Source of the DNA: Psychroserpens jangbogonensis
GTDB lineage: Bacteria > Bacteroidota > Bacteroidia > Flavobacteriales > Flavobacteriaceae
Reading direction: 5' to 3'
DNA length: 64,000 nucleotides
Assembly (NCBI RefSeq): GCF_000797465.1
Contig: NZ_JSWG01000001.1
Coordinates: 310,001 to 374,000 of the forward strand
The notes below the pieces were generated by a model, which was given only the letters and a program-made list of their open reading frames with translations, was not told the DNA's origin and did no database searches. A program made the translations under genes and the position numbers. Below are positions 45,596 to 56,889 of this stretch, piece by piece; position 1 is the stretch's first letter, and each line of letters starts with the position of its first letter.

Positions 45596-47575
45596 CTAAT
45601 TAATAATTATCTTTTTGACAACCTGTTTATTATTTGAATACAGATTAAGCAAGTAAATACCACTTGACAATTCTAAATCTATATAATCATCGTTTCGTAA
45701 ACTGAAAGTTTTGATCTTTCGTCCTTCTATTGAAAGGATTTCAATTTTGGCTTCGTTTTGTAATCCTCTAATGAAGATACGATTTGATGTAGGATTAGGA
45801 AACACTTGAATTTGAGTTGTATTAAATTCAGAAATACTTAATTCTTGATCCCAAACATCACCTACATTATCTCCCCAAATATATTCGACTAAATCAGGCT
45901 GATCAATAAAAGGATTCCTATTGATTTGCCACGTAAATACTACATTATTACGATTCATCTCATAATCATCAGGAGGATCATTTCTATGCCAATCTAATAA
46001 GGTTGCTAAATCTCCTAATTCTCCTGTTGTACCTTCTGGAAATCCATTAACTACTTGAAGTCCGTTAAATCTTATTTCCATATATAAAACACTTCTAGCT
46101 ACATCACCATAAAAACTAGCTTGATTAGCACTTGGCCCTGTATATTCACCATAATGCTGATTTCCTCTAGAACTATTTTCTGGTCCATCAACAGCTCTTA
46201 AAGCATGTGCATCTGAGTTTCCATGGCGCAATGAATCTGCAGTAGTATTCCAAAACACATTTCTACCATCTGCAATATCATCTTCGTCTATATCAAAATA
46301 TCCACCACGAGAACGAGGATACGTATGTTCTCTATTCCATTTTCCAGTACTCACAGAACCTGTTTGAAAATCTAATTTAGGACGACCTTGTTCAGTATAC
46401 ACTAACCACATTTGATTACTATTCTCTGGATTTTGATCAGCTTCTTTTAATATGTCAATAACATCAGCATAGGTTTGCGCTCTTACAACACCTTCTTCAG
46501 CGATTATATCTTGTAAGGCTTGACGCAATTGAGCATCAGCTAAACCATCTAAGCTATCATAATAATCATTTGGTTGTGTACCTGCCACTGTTTCAAACGT
46601 TGGATTTAAAGGCGTCCCAAATGATGCCGTCGTAAAGTCGTTATCTACAATTCGTATTTCAATATTATCATTAAGTTGGATGTATGGTAATGCCAAACTT
46701 ACAAATCGAATTCTAGTCACTTCATCGCCTTCATCATCACTGTCATCCACAAGAGTAATTGTTGTCGATGCTGTATTTTGTCCCATCGGAATAGTGATAG
46801 AAGTATTACCAGTAAAATCAGAAGTATTAAAACCTTGATTATTTAGTAGAATATCAAAATCTAAGTTATCTGTTACATTAGATTCCGAAGTAAATGTAAT
46901 ATCAAAACTGTCGTCTTCATTATATTGTGTTTGAGCTACACTAATACTAATACCATTAAATATAATTCCGCTTCCATCATTAAGTTGTCTAGGTGTAGGC
47001 ACTGTTGACATATAAGAAACGTTTCCATCCATATCTTCAAAACGCTGAATGGAATTAGTATTGTTACTAGAACCTTCATTAATTTGCTCGATATCCACAA
47101 AATTTGGATCGTCATTAAAAATATCGATTAAGTCTAAATCGTCACTATCTGAAGTATCATAGATTAAGACATCTATTAAATCTGTTATAGTTGCAACGGT
47201 GCCTTCCAGAAAATCAAAATTATTAGCTTGATAAATTGCTACAGCATCTGCTCCATTTTGAATTACATTTTCAGAAATTAGAAATTGAGGCACTGGTGAT
47301 ACTGAATTACTACCAATTAGTAAAAGTCCGTTAACATCTGTAACCAAACCATCCAAATCAACAGTAAAGTAGCTTGAATTCATACCAGAGGTAGAACCGT
47401 TAAAAAACACCAACACATAACCATCTAACGCAAAGTTAGGTGTTTCTGAAAGTAGCTCCACAAATTCCATGTTATCGATTCCTGGAGTATCACAATCTAA
47501 CTCATTGATTACAACCTGAGAGAATAGTGGATTCGCTATTAAAGCTAAAAAAATAAAGAGTAATAAAGATTTCAT
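45596..47575 (-). CDS. Secreted endonuclease I family nuclease with lamin-tail and T9SS sorting domains
   Basis: A 659-residue protein with a signal peptide (1-19), then a lamin-tail-like domain (VVINELDCDTPGIDNMEFVE, about 20-190) and a Calx-beta-like region (about 205-310). The endonuclease I domain (about 335-560) carries WNREHTYPRSRGG and NVFWNTTADSLRHGNSDAHAL, with the His and metal ligands intact. The end (QIQVFPNPTSNRIFIRG...) is a T9SS type A domain. It should degrade extracellular DNA or RNA for nutrients. Monocistronic. Confidence 0.93.
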   Translation of the reverse strand: MKSLLLFIFLALIANPLFSQVVINELDCDTPGIDNMEFVELLSETPNFALDGYVLVFFNGSTSGMNSSYFTVDLDGLVTDVNGLLLIGSNSVSPVPQFLISENVIQNGADAVAIYQANNFDFLEGTVATITDLIDVLIYDTSDSDDLDLIDIFNDDPNFVDIEQINEGSSNNTNSIQRFEDMDGNVSYMSTVPTPRQLNDGSGIIFNGISISVAQTQYNEDDSFDITFTSESNVTDNLDFDILLNNQGFNTSDFTGNTSITIPMGQNTASTTITLVDDSDDEGDEVTRIRFVSLALPYIQLNDNIEIRIVDNDFTTASFGTPLNPTFETVAGTQPNDYYDSLDGLADAQLRQALQDIIAEEGVVRAQTYADVIDILKEADQNPENSNQMWLVYTEQGRPKLDFQTGSVSTGKWNREHTYPRSRGGYFDIDEDDIADGRNVFWNTTADSLRHGNSDAHALRAVDGPENSSRGNQHYGEYTGPSANQASFYGDVARSVLYMEIRFNGLQVVNGFPEGTTGELGDLATLLDWHRNDPPDDYEMNRNNVVFTWQINRNPFIDQPDLVEYIWGDNVGDVWDQELSISEFNTTQIQVFPNPTSNRIFIRGLQNEAKIEILSIEGRKIKTFSLRNDDYIDLELSSGIYLLNLYSNNKQVVKKIIIN

Positions 47576-47600: not shown

Positions 47601-48118
47601 ATCATCAATTTGAGTATAATCGATTTATAGGTTTATTAAATGAATAATTTTAACATTAAAACGGCTAAAACTAACTGATTTAAAAACGAGTATCAAGTGA
47701 CATTTTTAATTTTTAAAAAGATGAAATTGCCGAAATACGTAGTTTTAAAGACAAATTCCCCCTTGGTTTTAAAAAAAACATCAAAAAACCTCCTTGAATT
47801 ATTACAATACCAAACAATTTACTTACAATAAGATTACAATTTGAAACTTCTTTCAAGACGGTCACATTAATACCGAAACATAAATCATCTTTTTAGTTAT
47901 AATATTATATTCAATTTCACGAATTTTGCTAAAAACGTTTGGTTATAGGATTTCCAAGGTTATATATTGAAAACTCAAACGAAAAAATAATAAATAATTA
48001 ACCTTTAAAACACTAAGAATTATGATGACACTTGCAAAACTAGTAATTGATTTAATTTTCTCAATATAAAAAAACTAAAAATCAGTTAATCAATCAAAAA
48101 ACAATCAACCAACACAAT

Positions 48119-48156
48119 GTAAAACTTATAAAAGCATAAGTTTTACATTTTCTTTT
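48119..48156 (+). terminator. Terminator-like hairpin upstream of the 50-codon gene
   Basis: A perfect 11-base stem (GTAAAACTTAT and complement), 6-base loop and a T-rich tail. No confident gene precedes it; it may end a short RNA carrying the 15-codon frame. Confidence 0.55.
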
Positions 48157-48219: not shown

Positions 48220-48372
48220 ATGAAGAAAGGAATATTTAAAGCACTAGCCAAAATCAACAAAGCAGTCTTACCAAGTTATACAAAACGTAACTTAGACCTT
48301 AGCAAAGCCACTAATATTCAATTAGGAATTATTGGATGGCGAGTCTATGTGACCAAGCGTGCTTTGGAGTAA
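48220..48372 (+). CDS. Short basic conserved flavobacterial protein (50 residues)
   Basis: ATG at 48220 to TAA at 48372. The protein begins MKKGIFKALAKINKAVLPSY and ends GWRVYVTKRALE. From memory, similar 50-residue proteins occur widely in Flavobacteriaceae and are sometimes labelled SsrA-binding protein, although this is not SmpB. It is basic, probably helical, with no signal peptide. Its last 17 codons occur again, diverged mostly at third codon positions near the end, at 55587-55639. That makes it the left edge of a possibly inserted segment. Confidence 0.75.
   Translation: MKKGIFKALAKINKAVLPSYTKRNLDLSKATNIQLGIIGWRVYVTKRALE
48319..48372 (+). repeat. Left copy of a 54-base direct repeat
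   Basis: The 3' end of the 50-codon gene. It aligns with 55587-55639 with one base deleted in the right copy. Twelve bases (AGTCTATGTGAC) are identical, and the following codons differ only at third positions. Confidence 0.7.
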
Positions 48373-48600
48373 AAAAACAAAATTTCAACTTCAGTAACCG
48401 AGGCAACAATTACCACGTAATTCCAAAAATTTTAATCTTCCCTACTCTTCTCGTACCATTTAAATAATCTTAATTTCCAACCGTTTAGTCCTTTAATTAG
48501 CAATTTTAGCTGCATTTAAATTGTGACATCAAGCTTATGCCAACATACTAGAACAATACCATAATCCTAAATCGTATAAATCGTTTTATTATAAATTGCA

Positions 48601-48608
48601 TAGTTTTG
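48601..48608 (+). promoter_or_regulatory. -7 promoter element of the first AraC gene (TAGTTTTG)
   Basis: TAGTTTTG ends 38 bases before the ATG at 48647 and lies inside the longer frame that begins at TTG 48596, arguing against that earlier start. Confidence 0.45.
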
Positions 48609-48646
48609 CAAAGCCACAAAAGTTTCAATTTAAAATTAGATTTATA

Positions 48647-49492
48647 ATGAATTTAAGGTATGCTAAACATCCAGAACAAGGAAACCTTGTTCTAACAGAT
48701 TTTAATTGTGCTTCTTTTGAAAAAAGATTGGGTGTTGGCGATTATTACAAAGTAATTTGGGCAAAAGAGAATCCTATTACAATTGGCATCGATGGATACT
48801 TGGTGAATTTGGAAAAGGATCAAGTTTTGTTTTGTACGCCATTTAATATGATCCAAATAGAACCTTTTTTAAAAGGAGCTAGTTCAATAATTTTTGATCG
48901 CGAGTTTTACTGTATTAGAGATCATGATCATGAAGTATCGTGTAATGGTTTTTTATTTCTTGGGTCTTCAGCACCAACAATTGTAGATTTAACAAAAAAA
49001 GAAAGAAAGAGTTTTGAATTACATTTTATGTTTTTTGAAGAAGAGTTTGAAACCCAAGACCACATTCAAGGTGAAATGTTAAGAGTGCTACTTAAGAGAT
49101 TACTTATAAAATCGGTAAGACTTTTAAAGAAAACTATTATTGACCCAACAATGGAGCAATCAAAAATTGATATTATTAGACAATTTAATTTGTTGGTAGA
49201 AGCAAATTTTAGAGAAAAACATAAAGTATCCGATTATGCAGAACTCTTAAATAAATCACCAAAAACTATTTCCAACCTATTTACTAAGTATAATAACAAG
49301 ACACCTTTACAAGTTATTAATGATCGTATTATACTTGAAGCGAAAAAATTATTATTGCTTTCAGAAAAATCTTCAAAAGAAATCGCCTTTGATTTAGGGT
49401 TTAACGAAGCTTCTCACTTTTCTAAATTTTTCAAAAACTACGCAGATATATCACCAATTCATTTTAAAAAGAATACTTTAAACATCTATTAA
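48647..49492 (+). CDS. AraC family transcriptional regulator 1
   Basis: A 281-residue regulator. The frame is open from a TTG at 48596, but a -7 promoter element at 48601-48608 makes the ATG at 48647 (MNLRYAKHPEQGNLVL) the likely start. The N-terminal part is a cupin-like ligand/dimer domain. The C-terminal ~100 residues hold the two helix-turn-helix units, with VSDYAELLNKSPKTISNLF and the second ending SKEIAFDLGFNEASHFSKFF. It is followed 100 bases later by a second AraC gene. The ligand is unknown. Confidence 0.9.
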   Translation: MNLRYAKHPEQGNLVLTDFNCASFEKRLGVGDYYKVIWAKENPITIGIDGYLVNLEKDQVLFCTPFNMIQIEPFLKGASSIIFDREFYCIRDHDHEVSCNGFLFLGSSAPTIVDLTKKERKSFELHFMFFEEEFETQDHIQGEMLRVLLKRLLIKSVRLLKKTIIDPTMEQSKIDIIRQFNLLVEANFREKHKVSDYAELLNKSPKTISNLFTKYNNKTPLQVINDRIILEAKKLLLLSEKSSKEIAFDLGFNEASHFSKFFKNYADISPIHFKKNTLNIY

Positions 49493-49507
49493 TCTTTTTT
49501 TTAATTC

Positions 49508-49573
49508 TAGGAAAATAGACATCTAATCAGGTCAAATGTTTATCAACTAAAGCTACAACCACTTCTAACTTTG
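49508..49573 (+). promoter_or_regulatory. Putative activator site and -7 box before the second AraC gene
   Basis: TAGGAAAATAGACAT followed by CTAATCAGGTCA (49508-49534) resembles 53218-53245. TAACTTTG (49566-49573) is the -7 box. There is no -33 TTTG, as expected for an activator-dependent promoter. A GTATCT/AGATAC inverted repeat (49575-49594) sits directly before the ATG. Confidence 0.5.
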
Positions 49574-49594
49574 TGTATCTAAAAAAAAAGATAC

Positions 49595-50407
49595 ATGCAA
49601 CCTGAAATTGGATCGTTATATAATTATCCTTACATAAATTACAAAAATTGCAAAACGAAAGCTTTTCATATTGAAAGCGTTTCTTCGGCTAGCTTAATTT
49701 GGATTGCTAAGGGTAGTTTAAAATGCAGTATAAATAACCAAGTTACGGTTATACCATCTAACACTATTATCTTATTAGATAAAGGAAATGTATTTAGCTA
49801 TAAAAGTAATAGTAGGTCTCAAATAAAGATACTTGAGTTTAATACTGAAATTTTCCTAAACTCTGTAACATTTATATGTGGCTTCATTAACAACAACACT
49901 AAAAAAGATTTAAAAAATCACATTATGCTCTTTTTTAAAAATGAGCAATCACCTTTACTAACAGATACTTTTTCAATTGTTGAAGAATTAATCACGGGCA
50001 ACCATTTAGTAGATATCGAAAAATTGAGTTTTACAATTTGTAACCTATTGCAGAACGCTCTTATAGAGAAATCTGTTCAAGACTCCAAATACATTAATCG
50101 TTTTGGAGAACTTTTAAACTCACAGTATAACATATTTCATAATGTTTCTGATTACGCATCCCAACTCATTATGAAACCAAAAAATTTATTGCGTTTGTTT
50201 CAAAAAAACGAACTTAAAAACCCAAGTGAGATTATTAAAGAAAAATTGTTGCTTGAAAGCAAAAAAAGGCTTGTCTATACGGATGAAAGTATTAGAGAAA
50301 TCTGTTTTGAAATTGGATTTTCTGATCCTGCTTACTTTTCTAGATTTTTTAAAAAGCACACAAGTCTAACTCCTCAACATTTCAGAAAGGAGTACGCACA
50401 AAACTGA
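49595..50407 (+). CDS. AraC family transcriptional regulator 2
   Basis: A 270-residue regulator with an N-terminal cupin-like domain and a C-terminal AraC DNA-binding domain. The first HTH lies around VSDYASQLIMKPKNLLRLF, and the second around SIREICFEIGFSDPAYFSRFF followed by LTPQHFRKEY. It is related to the regulator immediately upstream but clearly diverged. The -7 box TAACTTTG and the segment after it resemble those before the Grx-Grx-TrxR gene, so this protein probably controls itself and the downstream cassette. Confidence 0.9.
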   Translation: MQPEIGSLYNYPYINYKNCKTKAFHIESVSSASLIWIAKGSLKCSINNQVTVIPSNTIILLDKGNVFSYKSNSRSQIKILEFNTEIFLNSVTFICGFINNNTKKDLKNHIMLFFKNEQSPLLTDTFSIVEELITGNHLVDIEKLSFTICNLLQNALIEKSVQDSKYINRFGELLNSQYNIFHNVSDYASQLIMKPKNLLRLFQKNELKNPSEIIKEKLLLESKKRLVYTDESIREICFEIGFSDPAYFSRFFKKHTSLTPQHFRKEYAQN

Positions 50408-50422
50408 TGTATAGCAGAATAA

Positions 50423-50446
50423 GGAAAAAAGTGCAAGTTAATAGGA
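50423..50446 (+). promoter_or_regulatory. Conserved upstream motif before the NTF2-like gene
   Basis: GGAAAAAAGTGCAAGTTAAT plus AGGA (24 bases) matches 53199-53222 at 20 of 24 positions. It lies 30-54 bases upstream of the ATG. Probably a binding site of one of the AraC regulators. Confidence 0.5.
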
Positions 50447-50476
50447 TTCTAATAAACTAATTTTAACATAATTTTT

Positions 50477-50860
50477 ATGGAAATAATAGAAACCATCAAT
50501 AAAAAACATAAAAGTATTAATCAAGATATTTTTTTCATGCTTCTCAAAAATCAAAAAATTGAAGAAGCCATTGAGAAGTTTATGGATGAGGATATTGAAA
50601 TAGAATATAATAGTAAACAACGTTTCATTTCAAAAAAGATCTGGATCAAATATCTAAAGAAAACCATTTTAAATACATCTACAGAAGTTGTTCAATTTAA
50701 GGTAGAAGAAACTATAAATCCAGAAGAAAAATTCAAATTTAGAATTTTTATGATTTGTAAAAAATTAAAAGGCACCTTCGATTTAACAGAAATAAGAGTA
50801 TGCAATATTTGGAAGAATAACCAGATCAATAAAATGGAATACAAACTAATAAATCACTAA
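50477..50860 (+). CDS. Small protein, possibly NTF2/SnoaL-like
   Basis: A 127-residue cytoplasmic protein with an N-terminal helix pair followed by alternating strands. The C-terminal EIRVCNIWKNNQINKMEYK strand-turn-strand resembles SnoaL-like members of the NTF2 fold, which bind small hydrophobic ligands, but the match is weak and no catalytic residue is recognised. It is 15 bases upstream of the first P460 cytochrome gene and carries the shared AraC-type motif upstream, so it appears to open the P460 operon. Confidence 0.6.
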   Translation: MEIIETINKKHKSINQDIFFMLLKNQKIEEAIEKFMDEDIEIEYNSKQRFISKKIWIKYLKKTILNTSTEVVQFKVEETINPEEKFKFRIFMICKKLKGTFDLTEIRVCNIWKNNQINKMEYKLINH

Positions 50861-50875
50861 CCTAAAACAAATAAA

Positions 50876-51994
50876 ATGAAGCTTAAAAAAATCTATAAAG
50901 TAATTGTACTTGTCTCAATCGTGACATGTTTCATTACTTCATGTAAAAACGAAGGAGAAGGATATCAAGACATTTCCTATTTCAAAATGAATACTGAAGG
51001 TGATTTAGAACGTCCACAGGATTATAGATCTTGGGTATATGTTGGAACACCTGTTACTCCAAATGACATGAATGATGGAAAAGCTGCATTTCCAGAACTC
51101 CATAATGTTTATATGGATCCAATGAGCTATGATCACTGGAAAAAAACAGGGACTTGGCGAGATGGCACTATTCTAGTTAAAGAACTCGTTAGTGTTGGCA
51201 CTAAAGCTGCTGTAAGTGGTAATGGTTATTTTATGGGAGAATTCATTGGATTAGAGGCAACAATTAAAAGTTCAAAACATTTCCCAGACGAACCAGGAAA
51301 TTGGGCATATTTCAGTTTTACCAACCCAAAAGGTGGTGATTTAGCAGATACAGGTAAAGCCTTTGAAACGCAAATGTGTAATTCTTGTCATAATGCTAGC
51401 GCAGCAGATGATTTTGTGTTTACCCAATATTATCCTGTATTATCAGCAGCAAAAGGCGTTGGAGAAAACATTACTCCAGAAAATGCAGCGAGAAGAACAG
51501 CTGCTCAAGCAAAGGCCTTTAGTGACGCTGGAGTATGGGATGCAATGGCACCAACACCAGAAGGTTTAACGCTTGAAATTCCACTAGGAAAAGAACAGTT
51601 GTTTGCCTATCTAAAATCCGGAAAATATAAAAGCTATTCCAATAAAGAAGCAACTGCTCACCCATCTTTAGGACCACATCAAAAATTAGGACTTCCAGTA
51701 CGTGTATTTATGAATGATATTATTGCGAAATCATTAGAAGAAGGAAATAATGAACATCCTTTGGGATCAGTAATAGTAAAAGAAATGTTTACAGCAGATA
51801 ACCAGCCTAATGGTTGGGCTATAATGGCTAAAACCCATGATAAATCAGATGGTGGAAATGGTTGGTTTTGGTACGAAGTAACCGATGATAATGATGCAGA
51901 CAAAATTGCTGCTATTGGAAATGGTGTTGAAGGCTGTGTAAGTTGCCATACCATTGGAAGAGACATGGTTAGAACTTCCTTCCCTTTAAAATAA
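50876..51994 (+). CDS. Cytochrome P460 family lipoprotein with extra C-terminal haem domain
   Basis: A 372-residue lipoprotein (signal ending ITSC at Cys23). Residues about 35-190 are a cytochrome P460 domain, with the YRSWVYVGTPVTPNDMN opening and the haem motif CNSCH (Cys168-His172). P460 proteins oxidise hydroxylamine or bind NO using a lysine-linked haem. A further ~180 residues end with a second c-type motif, CVSCH (Cys354-His358), so this is a dihaem fusion. A paralogue lacking the extension follows after 27 bases. Likely periplasmic and part of nitrogen-oxide or redox stress handling (inference). Confidence 0.88.
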   Translation: MKLKKIYKVIVLVSIVTCFITSCKNEGEGYQDISYFKMNTEGDLERPQDYRSWVYVGTPVTPNDMNDGKAAFPELHNVYMDPMSYDHWKKTGTWRDGTILVKELVSVGTKAAVSGNGYFMGEFIGLEATIKSSKHFPDEPGNWAYFSFTNPKGGDLADTGKAFETQMCNSCHNASAADDFVFTQYYPVLSAAKGVGENITPENAARRTAAQAKAFSDAGVWDAMAPTPEGLTLEIPLGKEQLFAYLKSGKYKSYSNKEATAHPSLGPHQKLGLPVRVFMNDIIAKSLEEGNNEHPLGSVIVKEMFTADNQPNGWAIMAKTHDKSDGGNGWFWYEVTDDNDADKIAAIGNGVEGCVSCHTIGRDMVRTSFPLK

Positions 51995-52021
51995 AAAATA
52001 ACTAAAAACAAAATATAAAAA

Positions 52022-52633
52022 ATGAATAAATTAAAATACATACTCGTAATGATGATAACTATGGTAATAGTGACATCATGTAATGAAAATAGCAATTATA
52101 TTGAAGCTACATATTTTACCATGGATTCAAATGGAGAGTTAATTCGTCCTGTAGATTATAGAACATGGATTTATGTTGGAACACCTTTAACGCCTAACGA
52201 CATGAATAACGGAAAAGCTGCTTTTCCGGAATTTCACAATGTATATATTGACCCAATAAGTTATAAACAATATAAAAAAACTGGCACTTGGAGAGAAGGC
52301 ACAATTCTTATAAAAGAATTAGTAAATGTAGGAAGTAAAGCTGCCGTTAGTGGCAATGGTTACTTTATGGGTGAATTTATTGGATTAGAAGCTACAATAA
52401 AAAGTAAAGAGCACTTTCCAGATGAGCCAGGAAATTGGGCATATTTTAGTTTTACTAACCCAACAGGAGGAACTTTAGCAGCAACTGGCAAGGCTTTTGA
52501 AACTGCTCAATGTAATTCGTGTCATAATTCAAGTGCAGGTGATGATTTTGTATTTACACAACATTATCCAGTACTTAGAGCAGCCAAAGGTGTTGGCGAA
52601 GAAGTAACACCAGAAAACACTGCAAAACGATAA
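52022..52633 (+). CDS. Cytochrome P460 family lipoprotein (single-domain paralogue)
   Basis: A 203-residue lipoprotein (signal ending VTSC at Cys20). It is nearly collinear with the P460 domain of the preceding gene, including YRTWIYVGTPLTPNDMN, SGNGYFMGEFIGLEATIKS and the haem motif CNSCH (Cys164-His168). It stops at GEEVTPENTAKR, exactly where the other protein continues into its second haem domain. That is about where typical P460 proteins end, so it is more likely the ancestral size than a truncation. Tandem duplication is clear at DNA level. A terminator follows. Confidence 0.88.
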   Translation: MNKLKYILVMMITMVIVTSCNENSNYIEATYFTMDSNGELIRPVDYRTWIYVGTPLTPNDMNNGKAAFPEFHNVYIDPISYKQYKKTGTWREGTILIKELVNVGSKAAVSGNGYFMGEFIGLEATIKSKEHFPDEPGNWAYFSFTNPTGGTLAATGKAFETAQCNSCHNSSAGDDFVFTQHYPVLRAAKGVGEEVTPENTAKR

Positions 52634-52676
52634 ACACAAATTGGTTTTAAACTATTCTCGTAATAGTTTTAGTGTG

Positions 52677-52718
52677 GCCCAAAAGGATTTTTTATTTATA
52701 CTTTTGGGCTTTTTTTTT
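52677..52718 (+). terminator. Rho-independent terminator after the P460 pair
   Basis: Stem GCCCAAAAG/CTTTTGGGC with a 15-base loop and a run of ten T. Confidence 0.85.
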
Positions 52719-52730
52719 TAAAATTAAAAA

Positions 52731-53198
52731 ATGATAAAAACAATTGTTTTATTATTATTTGTTGTCCAAATAAGTCAAACAACAATAGCTCAAGAGCATA
52801 TTGATAAAGAACCAGGCTTTGAGTTAGTTTTTTCAGGATTATCTATCTATAATACAGAAACTGAAATAAGTGATTTTGCTACTGAAATCCACCTCACTTA
52901 CTGGACGACACATAAATGGGCTTTTGGTGTAGGTTACACCCTTGTGTTTGAGGAAGACAATAAAATTGGCCATGAGGTCGCAGCATTGGTAAGCCATAAA
53001 CCTTGGTCATTTTTAACTGTAAATACTGGACCAAGTATTTCATTACCAAATTCTCATAAAGACACTGAAATATCCACTTATTTAGAATCTGAATTTGCAT
53101 TTAAAATAGGAAACATTCATACAGGACCAACTGCTGGAATTTTAGTCGGTGAAGATTTTAGATATTTTGGTGGCTTGCACATTAGTTATGAATTTTAA
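52731..53198 (+). CDS. Small outer-membrane beta-barrel-like protein
   Basis: A 155-residue protein with a signal peptide (1-20, ending TTIAQ). Seven or eight alternating strands follow (FELVFSGLSIYNTE, IHLTYWTTHKWAFGVGYTLVFE, SFLTVNTGPSISLP, FAFKIGNIHTGPTAGILVG, FRYFGGLHISYEF). The last residue is Phe, as in outer-membrane barrels. It resembles short unannotated barrels of Bacteroidota. It begins just after the P460 terminator and before the AraC-type control region of the Grx-Grx-TrxR gene. Confidence 0.7.
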   Translation: MIKTIVLLLFVVQISQTTIAQEHIDKEPGFELVFSGLSIYNTETEISDFATEIHLTYWTTHKWAFGVGYTLVFEEDNKIGHEVAALVSHKPWSFLTVNTGPSISLPNSHKDTEISTYLESEFAFKIGNIHTGPTAGILVGEDFRYFGGLHISYEF

Positions 53199-53263
53199 GG
53201 AAAAAAGTACAATTCATTAGGAGAAATAGATATTCCTAATGGTCATGTTGTGCCCTAACTTTG
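53199..53263 (+). promoter_or_regulatory. AraC-type control region before the Grx-Grx-TrxR gene
   Basis: It contains GGAAAAAAGTAC plus AATTCATTAGGA (53199-53222, shared with 50423-50446). A dyad ATTAGGA...TCCTAAT (53216-53240) follows, then TAACTTTG (53256-53263, -7 box). The region from TAGGA to the start codon also resembles the second AraC promoter. No -33 TTTG. Confidence 0.55.
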
Positions 53264-53284
53264 TGATACTAAAAAATAGAACCA

Positions 53285-54691
53285 ATGAATGAAATTAAAC
53301 TTTATGGTGCAGACTGGTGTCCAGACTGCCGAAGAGCAAAAGCATATTTAAAGGAAAACAACATAGATTACACCTTTGTTGACGTCGATTTAGATAAAGA
53401 GGCTACTGCTAAAGTAGAAGCAATAAATAACGGAAAACGTATCATCCCAACTATTATTATTAATGGGAAATCCTACACTAATCCAGAAAACGGTGAGTTA
53501 GCTTCTGTTCTAGGAATTAATGAAGAAGGTGATGTGCAACTTTTTGGCGCAGATTGGTGTCCAGATTGCAGGCGTGCAAAGAGTTTCTTAAGAGATAATG
53601 GCGTCAATTTTCAGTTTATAGATGTAGATGAATATGATTGGGCAACGCACAGAGTTGAAGAAATTAATAACGGAAAACGTATAATTCCAACATTATTAAT
53701 TGACGGTAAACCATATACCAACCCAGATAATGTTGAGCTTACAGAGTTGCTTTCAATAAATGTAGAAAAAGAGCATAAAATTTTTGACTCGATAATAATT
53801 GGAGGAGGTGCAGCTGGGTTGACAACTTCAATTTATGCACAGCGTGACCGTTTTGATACATTAATATTAGAGAAATCTACAATTGGAGGCAATGCTTTTC
53901 TAACTGAAAAGATTGAGAATTACCCTGGCTTTCAGTCGATCTCTGGTCCAAAATTAATGGAGAAAATGGAAGAGCAAGCTAAAACGTATGGCGCTGTTAT
54001 TAAAACAGGTGAAGAAGTTATTGCCATTACAAAACAAGGTGAACTATTTTCAATTCAAACAAAGAGTGCCACTTATTTAGGAAAAACAGTTGTCTTATCT
54101 ACAGGTTCTACTTATAGAAAGTTGGGAATACCAAATGAAGAAGAGCTCATAGGTTCTGGAATTCATTTTTGCGCAACTTGTGATGGCGCATTTTATAGAG
54201 ATAGAGATATTATTGTTGTAGGTGGTGGAAATTCAGCATTAGAAGAAGGAATCTTTTTAGCCGGTTTTTGCAAAAGTGTTAAAATCATACATCGATCTGA
54301 GCACTTTAGTGCATCAGAAACTTATATCGAAAAATTGAAATCAATTGATAACATTTCAACCTATATGAATAAAACATCACTTGAGTTTGTTTCAAATGAA
54401 AATGATTTATTTAAAGGACTTAAAGTTAAAGATAATGTGACTAATGAAGAATCAATTATTGAAGCAGATGGAGTATTTATTTTTATTGGTTTAATCCCAA
54501 ATACGCAATCATTTAGGGATGTGGTATCACTTGACGAACGTGAATTTATTCAAACTACAGGATTAGCAGAGACTTCAGTAAAAGGAATTTTTGCTGCTGG
54601 AGATTGCAGAGAAGGTGCGATTGCCCAAGTCGCAGCAGCAACTGGAGAAGGTGTTTTGGCGAGCTACGGAATTAGAAATTATTTGAAATAA
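53285..54691 (+). CDS. Fusion of two glutaredoxin-like domains and thioredoxin reductase
   Basis: A 468-residue fusion. Two tandem glutaredoxin-like domains (about 1-80 and 82-160) each begin GADWCPDCRRAK, with redox motifs Cys12-Pro-Asp-Cys15 and Cys92-Pro-Asp-Cys95. They share NNGKRIIPT as the cis-Pro loop. From about 165 follows a full low-molecular-weight thioredoxin reductase: FAD loop IIGGGAAGLTTSIYAQ, redox pair CATCDGAF (about 297-304), NADPH loop VVGGGNSALEEG, and GIFAAGDCREG. It could pass NADPH electrons straight to its own Grx domains. Control region shared with the AraC genes. Confidence 0.92.
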   Translation: MNEIKLYGADWCPDCRRAKAYLKENNIDYTFVDVDLDKEATAKVEAINNGKRIIPTIIINGKSYTNPENGELASVLGINEEGDVQLFGADWCPDCRRAKSFLRDNGVNFQFIDVDEYDWATHRVEEINNGKRIIPTLLIDGKPYTNPDNVELTELLSINVEKEHKIFDSIIIGGGAAGLTTSIYAQRDRFDTLILEKSTIGGNAFLTEKIENYPGFQSISGPKLMEKMEEQAKTYGAVIKTGEEVIAITKQGELFSIQTKSATYLGKTVVLSTGSTYRKLGIPNEEELIGSGIHFCATCDGAFYRDRDIIVVGGGNSALEEGIFLAGFCKSVKIIHRSEHFSASETYIEKLKSIDNISTYMNKTSLEFVSNENDLFKGLKVKDNVTNEESIIEADGVFIFIGLIPNTQSFRDVVSLDEREFIQTTGLAETSVKGIFAAGDCREGAIAQVAAATGEGVLASYGIRNYLK

Positions 54692-54697
54692 AAACTA

Positions 54698-55147
54698 ATG
54701 GAATTACCAATCAAAAAGAAAGTTTTAGTAGTTTTTGCGTTAGTTTTTATTGGAATACAGTTCTATAGACCAAATAAAAATGAACAATTGCCAGAAACTT
54801 TAGATGACTTTTTAATTGCAGAAAAAGCTCCAAAAAACATTAAATCATTAATTAAAAATTCCTGCTATAATTGCCATTCGAATAACACCAATTATTTTTG
54901 GTATGATCATATTGCTCCTGCAAGTTGGTTTGTAGATAACCATATTAAAGAAGCAAGAGAACATCTTAATTTTTCAAATTGGGCAACATTAGATAGCAGA
55001 GATAGAGCTGGAATGGTTTCTGAAATAGCAGTAAATATTTTAGAAGAAAAAATGCCATTACCTTCGTATGTTACAATTCACTCAGATGCTAAATTATCCG
55101 AAAGTAATAAACAAAAAATTTTAGAATGGCTTTATACTATTGATTAA
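54698..55147 (+). CDS. Haem-binding domain protein
   Basis: A 149-residue protein with an N-terminal membrane anchor or signal (KKKVLVVFALVFIGIQFY) and the haem-binding domain seen in many Bacteroidota cytochromes. One c-type motif, CYNCH (about residues 55-59), is followed by NNTNYFWYDHIAPASWFVD and KEAREHLNFSNW. It should sit on the outer face of the inner membrane. It starts 6 bases after the Grx-Grx-TrxR stop, so the two are co-transcribed. Confidence 0.88.
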   Translation: MELPIKKKVLVVFALVFIGIQFYRPNKNEQLPETLDDFLIAEKAPKNIKSLIKNSCYNCHSNNTNYFWYDHIAPASWFVDNHIKEAREHLNFSNWATLDSRDRAGMVSEIAVNILEEKMPLPSYVTIHSDAKLSESNKQKILEWLYTID

Positions 55148-55175
55148 TTCATTTTCATAAATAACAAAAATTAAT

Positions 55176-55568
55176 ATGATGAACTGGTATTTACCAATTA
55201 CTATTATTCCTGGTTTAGGAATGTTAATTCTATCTACTACCTCACAAATGATGACGTTAAGTTCAGAAATTGGAAGTTTGTTGGCAAATAAGTGTACTTT
55301 AAATCAACATAAAATTTCTGAACGAAAAATCAAACAATTAGGTTTACTAACTAGAGCTAGTGCATTGCTATATTTAGCAACAGGATGTTACGTGTTATCT
55401 GGAATTTTAGGTGTTGTTTTTGAAACAGAAGCAATTTTAAGTTTACCAAGTATTACGCTTTACTTAGGTACCGTTTTAATATTTATAGCCATTAGTTTGT
55501 TAATTCTCTATGCTTTTCGAGCTGTAAAAATAAGGAAAGACCAATTTATAAATAATCAAAATATATAA
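55176..55568 (+). CDS. Three-helix membrane protein, unknown function
   Basis: A 130-residue protein with hydrophobic segments at about residues 5-24, 55-78 and 88-116. The stretch PGLGMLILSTTSQMMTLSSE is reminiscent of DUF2721 membrane proteins, but the similarity is not strong enough to assign. It lies 28 bases after the haem-binding gene and is the last complete gene of the AraC-linked cassette. Confidence 0.65.
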   Translation: MMNWYLPITIIPGLGMLILSTTSQMMTLSSEIGSLLANKCTLNQHKISERKIKQLGLLTRASALLYLATGCYVLSGILGVVFETEAILSLPSITLYLGTVLIFIAISLLILYAFRAVKIRKDQFINNQNI

Positions 55569-55586
55569 GGTTATGATTTAAAGAAA

Positions 55587-55639
55587 CAATGAGCAGCTAT
55601 TGGTTGCTAGTCTATGTGACTAAACGAGCTTTGGAATAA
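55587..55639 (+). pseudogene. 3' fragment of the 50-codon gene (right copy of the direct repeat)
   Basis: These 53 bases align with the last 54 bases of the gene at 48220-48372. They keep the reading frame for LVYVTKRALE and the stop, but lack the first two thirds of the gene. The last four changed codons are all synonymous. It is followed at once by a strong terminator and the tRNA-Arg gene. Confidence 0.7.
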
Positions 55640-55644
55640 AACAA

Positions 55645-55676
55645 AAAAAGCAAGCTATTTTATTAGCTTGCTTTTT
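55645..55676. terminator. Bidirectional terminator between the gene fragment and tRNA-Arg
   Basis: A perfect 13-base stem (AAAAAGCAAGCTA and complement) with a 6-base loop. It can end rightward transcription from the cassette and the leftward tRNA transcript. Confidence 0.85.
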
Positions 55677-55685
55677 ATTTATTCG

Positions 55686-55759
55686 TGACCTCGACTGGAT
55701 TCAAACCAGTAACCTCTTGAGCCGTAATCAAGTGCGCTATTCAGTTGCGCCACGAGGCC
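55686..55759 (-). tRNA. tRNA-Arg (anticodon ACG)
   Basis: 74 bases fold into a full cloverleaf: acceptor GGCCTCG/CGAGGTC (one G-U), D stem GCGC/GCGC, anticodon stem CTTGA/TCAAG with loop TTACGGC, T stem ACTGG/CCAGT and discriminator A. CCA is not encoded. The D loop has A at position 19 and the T loop has T at position 56, an A19-U56 pair in place of the near-universal G19-C56. Confidence 0.95.
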
Positions 55760-55889
55760 TTTTTTAGTGGATGCAAATATACTACATTTATTAAGTCACT
55801 ACCAAACTATTTATTTCAAAATTTAAACTAAAGGTTATTCCATGTAACTATTTATAACAAAAATCACAATACATATCAATAGCTCTATA

Positions 55890-55913: not shown

Positions 55914-56474
55914 ATGGAACACATATTACAGCCTTGGCCTTGGTACGTTTCAGGCCCTCTTATTGCATTAATTATGTTTACCCTAATCTATCTAGGTAAA
56001 ACATTTGGTATGTCATCAAATCTTAGAACACTCTGTGCTATTGGAGGTGCAGGAAAAAAAGTTAAATTCTTCCATTTTGATTGGAGATCCCAACTATGGA
56101 ATCTGATAGTGGTTTTGGGTGCTTTGATTGGTGGTTTTATTGCACATCAGTTTCTATCTGTTCCAACTCATATAGATTTAAACCCTAAAACGATTGAAGA
56201 TTTATCTCAATTGGGTTTTGAAAATGCTGGCCAATCATTACTTCCAGCTGAACTCTATAGTTGGGATGCTGTATTTAGCTTGAAAGGTATTTTAATTCTA
56301 GTAATCGGAGGACTTTTAGTGGGCTTCGGCACACGTTATGCAGGAGGTTGTACTTCTGGTCATGCTATAACTGGCCTAAGTAGTTTACAACGACCTTCTT
56401 TAATTGCTGTCATTGGTTTTTTTATTGGCGGACTTATTATGACTCATTTACTATTCCCTTTAATTTTTGGTTAA
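55914..56474 (+). CDS. YeeE/YedE family (TsuA-like) sulfur transporter, first half
   Basis: A 186-residue membrane protein with about four helices and the YeeE/YedE signature GTRYAGGCTSGHAITGLSSL (about residues 141-160). Its Cys is the one that relays thiosulfate or persulfide in TsuA. Full-length YeeE proteins have about 350 residues; here the second half is a separate gene starting one base after this stop. Together they should import thiosulfate-type sulfur or move it across the inner membrane. First gene of the sulfur operon. Confidence 0.92.
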   Translation: MEHILQPWPWYVSGPLIALIMFTLIYLGKTFGMSSNLRTLCAIGGAGKKVKFFHFDWRSQLWNLIVVLGALIGGFIAHQFLSVPTHIDLNPKTIEDLSQLGFENAGQSLLPAELYSWDAVFSLKGILILVIGGLLVGFGTRYAGGCTSGHAITGLSSLQRPSLIAVIGFFIGGLIMTHLLFPLIFG

Positions 56475-56475
56475 T

Positions 56476-56889
56476 ATGAAGTTTTTGAAATTTTTATTCG
56501 TTGGCATTATTTTCGGAATTGTATTGGTCAAATCTGAAGCCGTATCATGGTATCGTATTTATGAAATGTTCAAATTTGAATCCTTTCATATGTATGGAAT
56601 AATTGGAACTGCTATAGGCACTGGAGTCATTTTACTTCTTATAGCAAAACAATTAAAACTAAATAATTTAGAAGGAAATCAAATGAAAGTTCCTTTAAAA
56701 GATAAAGGTGTTTTTCGTTATATTATTGGCGGCACACTTTTCGGATTAGGCTGGGCTTTAGCTGGAGCTTGTCCTGGGCCAATGTACATATTAGTAGGAA
56801 CTGGAGCATTTTCAGTACTTATCGTAATCGCTGCTGCTTTAGTAGGCACTTATGTTTACGGAATTATCAAAGACAAACTTCCACATTAG
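56476..56889 (+). CDS. YeeE/YedE family transporter, second half (DUF6691 type)
   Basis: A 137-residue, four-helix protein. The ATG at 56476 follows the previous stop by one base; the frame is open three codons further to a TTG inside the upstream gene, which is unlikely to be used. The motif GGTLFGLGWALAGACPGPMY (about 87-106) is the second YeeE/YedE repeat with its own Cys. The two proteins probably pair in the membrane to make one transport unit. Next comes the persulfide dioxygenase-type gene. Confidence 0.9.
   Translation: MKFLKFLFVGIIFGIVLVKSEAVSWYRIYEMFKFESFHMYGIIGTAIGTGVILLLIAKQLKLNNLEGNQMKVPLKDKGVFRYIIGGTLFGLGWALAGACPGPMYILVGTGAFSVLIVIAAALVGTYVYGIIKDKLPH

Follow-up and report, generated by a model that had tools for sequence, protein, structure and literature searches.

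A sporadic redox/stress gene cluster in a tRNA-Arg(ACG) hotspot of Psychroserpens jangbogonensis, beside the probable scar of an older junction

A block of nine genes between a 50-codon gene and tRNA-Arg(ACG)

The subject of this study is a block of nine genes in a 64,000-nucleotide stretch of the Psychroserpens jangbogonensis genome (hereafter the window), where it lies between an intact 50-codon gene and tRNA-Arg(ACG), with an orphan copy of the 3' end of the 50-codon gene just before the tRNA. We consider it very probable that the block is cargo inserted in a horizontal-transfer hotspot bordered by the 50-codon gene and the tRNA, and nearly as probable that positions 55587-55684 are the leftover of an older compact junction in which gene, terminator and convergent tRNA followed one another. 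The site is occupied in this genome and holds other cargo or none in relatives, and the same cluster stands elsewhere in other species. On balance, the best overall explanation is that a sporadic redox/stress cluster entered the hotspot and left a scar of the old junction. In what follows, G000 is the window's own genome, and the other G and L numbers are those of compared genomes and loci. The borders of the block are the following:

48220..48372, + strand: intact 50-codon gene, left boundary of the hotspot (open reading frame and homology searches)
48319..48382, + strand: left repeat copy, the 3' end of the gene plus about 10 bp (nucleotide match)
55587..55649, + strand: orphan copy of the 3' end of the 50-codon gene, probably what remains of a former gene-terminator-tRNA junction
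55645..55676, both strands: two-way terminator-like hairpin between fragment and tRNA (hairpin search and folding)
55685..55759, - strand: tRNA-Arg(ACG), which bounds the hotspot on the right when so oriented

The site as a transfer hotspot

We compared the site between G000 and 29 relatives; the intervals of G013, G020 and G021 are interrupted by contig ends, and G019, where the 50-codon gene was not found, was left out. In most members of the genus the gene is preceded by BlaI/R-like and endonuclease-like genes and the tRNA is followed by YeeE-like and MBL-rhodanese-like genes (all by eye); in the window the endonuclease-like gene occupies 45596-47575 and the YeeE-like genes 55914-56889. Between these flanks, the distance from gene to tRNA ranges from 76 bp (G014) to 30.6 kb (G017). 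The cassette genes of G000 were not found at the site in the 29 relatives, except for a partial AraC match of 24% in G006, and the closest relatives, G013 and G020, have a different operon beside the tRNA, with ArsR-, arsenate reductase-like and Acr3-like genes (by eye). Conserved flanks with differing content between them, which define a horizontal-transfer hotspot, were found in this comparison and in the 95 same-contig pairs of a survey of 140 sampled Flavobacteriaceae genomes, 118 of which have the gene and 128 the tRNA. The tRNA lies at most 60 kb downstream of the gene in 89 of these 95 pairs. It is co-oriented with the gene in 55 pairs, 5 of which have gaps of more than 2 kb (median 588 bp), and faces it in 34, where 24 gaps are that long (median 7.6 kb).

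A known kind of genomic island is inserted at the 3' end of a tRNA gene by a tyrosine recombinase. Integrase genes with tRNA 3' copies are also present at this tRNA-Arg(ACG) spot: at least four genomes have tyrosine recombinase genes about 0.9 kb from partial tRNA-Arg copies (G005, G009, G017 and, broken by a stop codon, G021). Other copies of the tRNA 3' end occur in G004 and G007, with an inverted one in G013 (E 0.003), and the stretches of 16-17 nt in G027 are not significant alone. The G000 block differs from such islands. No integrase was found among its nine open reading frames (Pfam, E 0.01) nor on its 403-kb contig, in agreement with the original prediction, which was made from the letters of the window; the nine Phage_integrase matches of the genome all lie on other contigs (this search covered the Phage_integrase family, and serine recombinases were covered only by the Pfam scan of the block). 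A copy of the tRNA 3' end was not found in the block either, the best match being 16/24, with 13-16 in 12 shuffles. Moreover, the block lies beyond the terminator of the tRNA and is not joined directly to the tRNA 3' end, since the terminator and the gene fragment intervene. In its conserved core flanks, fast turnover of cargo and an occupant lacking an integrase, as is often the case there, the site resembles the chromosomal hotspots of horizontal transfer described in an excerpt of PMC5635113. It differs from them in that the G000 occupant leaves an orphan gene tail, and the likeness drawn here is one of gene content.

The orphan gene tail

The direct repeat that the original prediction placed at the 3' end of an intact small gene was recovered in a genome-wide search with positions 55570-55800 as query: positions 48319-48382 and 55587-55649 are 80% identical over 63-64 bases (E 3.3e-8), with an ungapped core of 44 nt at 84%. 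A DNA profile of the 50-codon gene, built from 26 genomes including G000, detects the fragment at E 1e-4, which makes it the sole non-gene match with E <1 in the 665 kb searched (next best, E 1.9). At the protein level, a search of the G000 genome detected the intact gene alone and not the fragment. The latter has a 1-nt deletion upstream of the final ten codons (by eye) and is therefore not a gene. Within these ten codons, stop included, it has four differences from the intact gene and all four are synonymous, as had been noticed before; without constraint such a pattern would arise with a probability of about 0.004-0.006, a figure that applies to a stretch picked after the fact. The synonymous changes fit two coding alleles.

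The stop codon of the fragment ends 5 bp ahead of the hairpin at 55645-55676 (folding z of -6.3 and -5.0), which is terminator-like on both strands, and 45 bp ahead of tRNA-Arg(ACG), so that the terminator and tRNA originally placed beside the fragment are indeed there. The original prediction also proposed to look in relatives for the gene followed by terminator and tRNA with no cassette, and such unoccupied junctions exist: in four genomes of other genera, the distance from the stop codon to a convergent tRNA is 41 bp (G176), 44 bp (G073), 60 bp (G168) and 69 bp (G062), with a hairpin-like stretch (by eye) and no cargo between them. Within the genus, G010 has 290 bp from gene to tRNA. Because the 45 bp from stop to tRNA reproduce the layout of the compact sites, we interpret the fragment as most likely the end of the gene that once stood at that junction.

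The 50-codon gene itself is present in 41 of 57 genomes, G000 included, and in the 118 genomes of the survey mentioned above, with one match in each positive genome (41/41 and 118/118). At E 0.01, neither Pfam nor NCBIfam has a match for its protein; short proteins of this kind are sometimes labelled SsrA-binding protein. Upstream of the gene there is a hairpin at 48111-48154, with 19-nt arms that are 89% complementary and 6 nt between them. The gene profile has two other weak matches. One, in G129 (E 0.09), is to the 5' part of the gene and lies at L220 9474-9518, with about 400 bp between it and the tRNA; the other, in G164 (L158; E 0.98), is to an inner part.

The cargo and its presence at other sites

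The nine genes of the block, all on the + strand, are the following:

48650..49492, + strand: AraC-type regulator 1 (Pfam)
49595..50407, + strand: AraC-type regulator 2 (Pfam)
50477..50860, + strand: gene of 127 aa without a Pfam match; resembles SnoaL (by eye only)
50876..51994, + strand: 372-aa protein with a cytochrome P460 domain and, close to the C end, a second CxxCH
52022..52633, + strand: short P460 paralogue, 203 aa
52731..53198, + strand: protein of 155 aa without a Pfam match; looks secreted and barrel-like (by eye only)
53285..54691, + strand: Grx-Grx-thioredoxin reductase fusion (Pfam/NCBIfam)
54698..55147, + strand: Haem_bd protein (Pfam)
55176..55568, + strand: DUF2721-like membrane protein, 20.9 bits, below the Pfam cut-off of 28.3

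All genes named in the original prediction (two AraC regulators, two P460 cytochromes, the fusion of two Grx domains with thioredoxin reductase, and a haem protein, here Haem_bd) were found, together with three further open reading frames of 127, 155 and 130 aa. The short P460 gene directly follows the long one, and the two form a conserved pair. Since its end residue is identical in G000, G001, G011, G192, G406 and L142, the short one is a gene of its own and not a fresh truncation. The cargo families (AraC, P460, Haem_bd and a self-contained Grx/thioredoxin reductase) and the SelO-, MsrA-, EgtB- and EgtD-like neighbours of the cluster in G001 and G011 (by eye) suggest a role in defence against reactive nitrogen and oxygen species and disulphide stress. 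Our literature search found nothing joining cytochrome P460, Flavobacteriaceae and glutaredoxin.

In G001 and G011 all nine genes stand in the same order, at 76-82% nucleotide identity, but between an HD-domain gene and SelO (by eye). The nucleotide homology begins at 48646 and stops at 55558-55561, and both clusters have one additional small gene (118 aa) inside. A third setting is seen in a metagenome-assembled genome of Winogradskyella (L142), where eight of the nine genes were found, at 67-91% protein identity, but not the DUF2721-like one. In G192 and G406 the cluster follows the HD gene and has MsrB-MsrA among its genes, with parts missing or broken in G406. A profile search of these loci found the orphan fragment at none of them. 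Far from being conserved at the site through the family, which the original prediction had named as an argument against itself, the cassette is sporadic: the fusion occurs in 4 of 23 genus genomes (E 1e-100), and the P460 protein in 4 of 23 (E 1e-30) and in 7 of 397 family genomes (E 1e-60), G000 being counted each time. Outside G000, the cassette markers of the genus genomes sit at other places.

The HD and SelO matches are 146-212 bp apart in 15 genus genomes and are not neighbours in G003 and G021. In G000, G002, G013 and G020 they are separated by 1.3-1.5 kb with MsrB and MsrA, and, except in G013, also Grx (by eye). The stretch that follows the HD gene and ends at SelO, if SelO is there (L112, L113, L116, L134 and L135), is another site at which redox genes vary (MsrA, MsrB, Grx and the P460 cluster; names by eye).

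As to the origin of the cargo, the composition check proposed in the original prediction turned out negative, with 31.6% G+C in the cassette and 31.6 and 32.8% in the flanks. At 4-fold sites, which are near-saturated in this comparison, cassette and core are equally diverged: 0.473 versus 0.464 for G000-G001, 0.407 versus 0.403 for G000-G011, and 0.403 versus 0.412 for G001-G011. Recent import from a G001- or G011-like donor is therefore not demonstrable. In trees built with FastTree and IQ-TREE, the branches of G000, G001, G011 and L142 are nearly star-like, with support of 75 and 61%.

How the scar may have formed

We suggest that the redox/stress cluster, from the first AraC gene to the DUF2721-like gene, would have recombined into the hotspot. 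The incoming DNA would have brought or regenerated the intact 50-codon gene at the left edge by homologous recombination, and the right edge would have been joined illegitimately inside the resident gene, the last 54 bases or so of which would have survived as a scar. Such an insertion would require no integrase. This one-sided combination of homologous and illegitimate joining is a tentative proposal, one candidate among several. It has precedents: hotspots without mobile genes and with recombination at their flanks have been reported (excerpt of PMC5635113), homology-facilitated illegitimate recombination is described as a process (excerpt of PMC3240628), and it has been proposed as the source of orphaned 3' regions at the type VI secretion system of Vibrio cholerae and at Rhs loci (excerpt of PMC5361080). 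At the latter, as here, a new module follows a conserved anchor and the old 3' part is retained downstream; the G000 tail differs in being short, non-coding and derived from a conserved 50-codon gene, and its mechanism is inferred only.

Several points weigh against this scenario. One-sided joining is given as orders of magnitude rarer than ordinary homologous recombination (excerpt of PMC5361080). The compact empty junctions come from other genera and none from a conspecific strain. The parentage of the fragment is equivocal, since its last 30 nt differ at 3 positions from the G001 gene, at 4 from the gene of G000 itself and at 8-9 from those of the three closest relatives. We also looked for a foreign 3' end in the intact gene and found no clearly foreign part: over the first 99 nt its similarity follows the clade (0.82-0.86 with the three closest relatives versus 0.69-0.73 with the eight others compared), and the last 54 nt are uninformative (0.78-0.87 versus 0.74-0.87). 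Finally, the equal divergence of cassette and core genes would also suit an old vertical presence followed by relocation.

Alternatively, the 50-codon gene could have been duplicated in tandem beside the tRNA, with the cluster later inserted between the copies and truncating the right one, so that no donor copy of the gene is needed. We regard this as a serious rival, though the less likely one. Both copies have a third-position C in a GTC codon that is found in none of 20 congeners, they have in common a terminal Glu codon likewise seen in none of the 20 (by eye), and their similarity continues a few bases beyond the stop codon. However, the idea that the two copies have several unique bases in common was rejected, as the count over the 20 congeners left one, and a single common base is thin evidence when the G001 gene is equally close to the fragment. 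Duplication also needs two events, and the one match per positive genome means that no genome with two full copies was seen.

As regards the origin of the cargo, it is rather improbable, instead of an import, that the cluster is native to the HD-SelO stress locus of G000 and reached the tRNA site by a move within the genome. The clusters with MsrB-MsrA after the HD gene in G192 and G406, the MsrB-MsrA-Grx genes that G000 retains between HD and SelO, and the matching divergence of cassette and core genes all speak for such a relocation. It would nevertheless require repeated losses, because G002, G013 and G020 have MsrB-MsrA without the cluster and 15 more genus genomes have neither, and the L142 cluster is equally similar in another setting.

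The original prediction pointed to an element that inserts at the end of the 50-codon gene, supplies it with a 3' end of its own and may since have decayed; as a site-specific element, it would have lost its integrase. The part of this claim that concerns insertion stood, given the different cargo of relatives and the empty junctions; the attachment at the gene end did not, and we find a site-specific element improbable. The geometry does fit, with an intact gene at the left border, its reading frame preserved, and an orphan 3' end at the right one. However, no recombinase was found in the block (Phage_integrase search and Pfam scan of its open reading frames), the hotspot integrases listed pair with 3' fragments of the tRNA, and the same cluster stands at other sites without the fragment. 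No second orphan 3' end, as expected if related elements used the gene end, was found in 665 kb of hotspot regions (G000 and its 29 relatives, with the three incomplete intervals noted above) nor in other loci, with some overlap, that amount to 718 kb. The search was able to see one: when ten 54-nt 3' ends were planted, the profile detected them with 38-45 bits, and it gives 20.5 bits for the G000 fragment. As for chance similarity of a short AT-rich stretch, a match of merely 54-64 nt at 80% might invite it, but it is hardly credible given the E of 3e-8, an alignment in frame to the stop with synonymous-only changes in the final ten codons, and a position exactly where the compact sites elsewhere predict it.

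Two orientations of the tRNA

Between the same flanks and beside the 50-codon gene, tRNA-Arg(ACG) lies in either orientation (the window and loci L061-L100). We compared its surroundings in 26 genomes (8 and 18 per orientation, relatedness not removed). The upstream 60-mers have similarities of 0.72 and 0.81 within orientations and 0.68 between them, with 0 of 2000 label shuffles as extreme, and the downstream 60-mers 0.54 and 0.66 within and 0.59 between (33 of 2000 shuffles). G003 and G021 show no fit to the promoter of their own group at the expected place. Some terminators and repeats are common to both orientations (by eye, G030 and G002). A plain inversion of the tRNA is disfavoured, as the promoters differ between orientations, and two ancestral promoter sides, combined with either recombination or alternating loss, are a better fit. 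It is conceivable, though we hold it with little confidence, that the tRNA has turned round more than once while its flanks stayed the same. Recombination, either inside the tRNA or involving inverted copies, would swap the promoter side and move the cargo hotspot across the tRNA, and elements may drive the switch. Because eight nodes of the flank tree have support below 0.8, the flips were left uncounted. In G013 (L100 11955-11985), a 3' fragment of tRNA-Arg adjoins the YeeE-like gene and points the other way from the intact tRNA, a possible trace of a change of orientation. On the 3' side of the tRNA, L062, L074, L075, L090 and L094 have repeats of several tens of bp with small hairpins (of the GCTCCGCTTTGAAAA type) near the tRNA terminator (by eye).

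Implications

The preferred explanation, a cluster that entered the hotspot and left part of the old junction behind, would account for an odd orphan gene tail as a scar of recombination. Beyond that, the comparison delineates a tRNA-Arg(ACG) transfer hotspot that extends across the Flavobacteriaceae, and one P460/thioredoxin-reductase stress cluster is seen at three different sites in related bacteria. The two orientations of the tRNA pose a testable question on how such hotspots are built.

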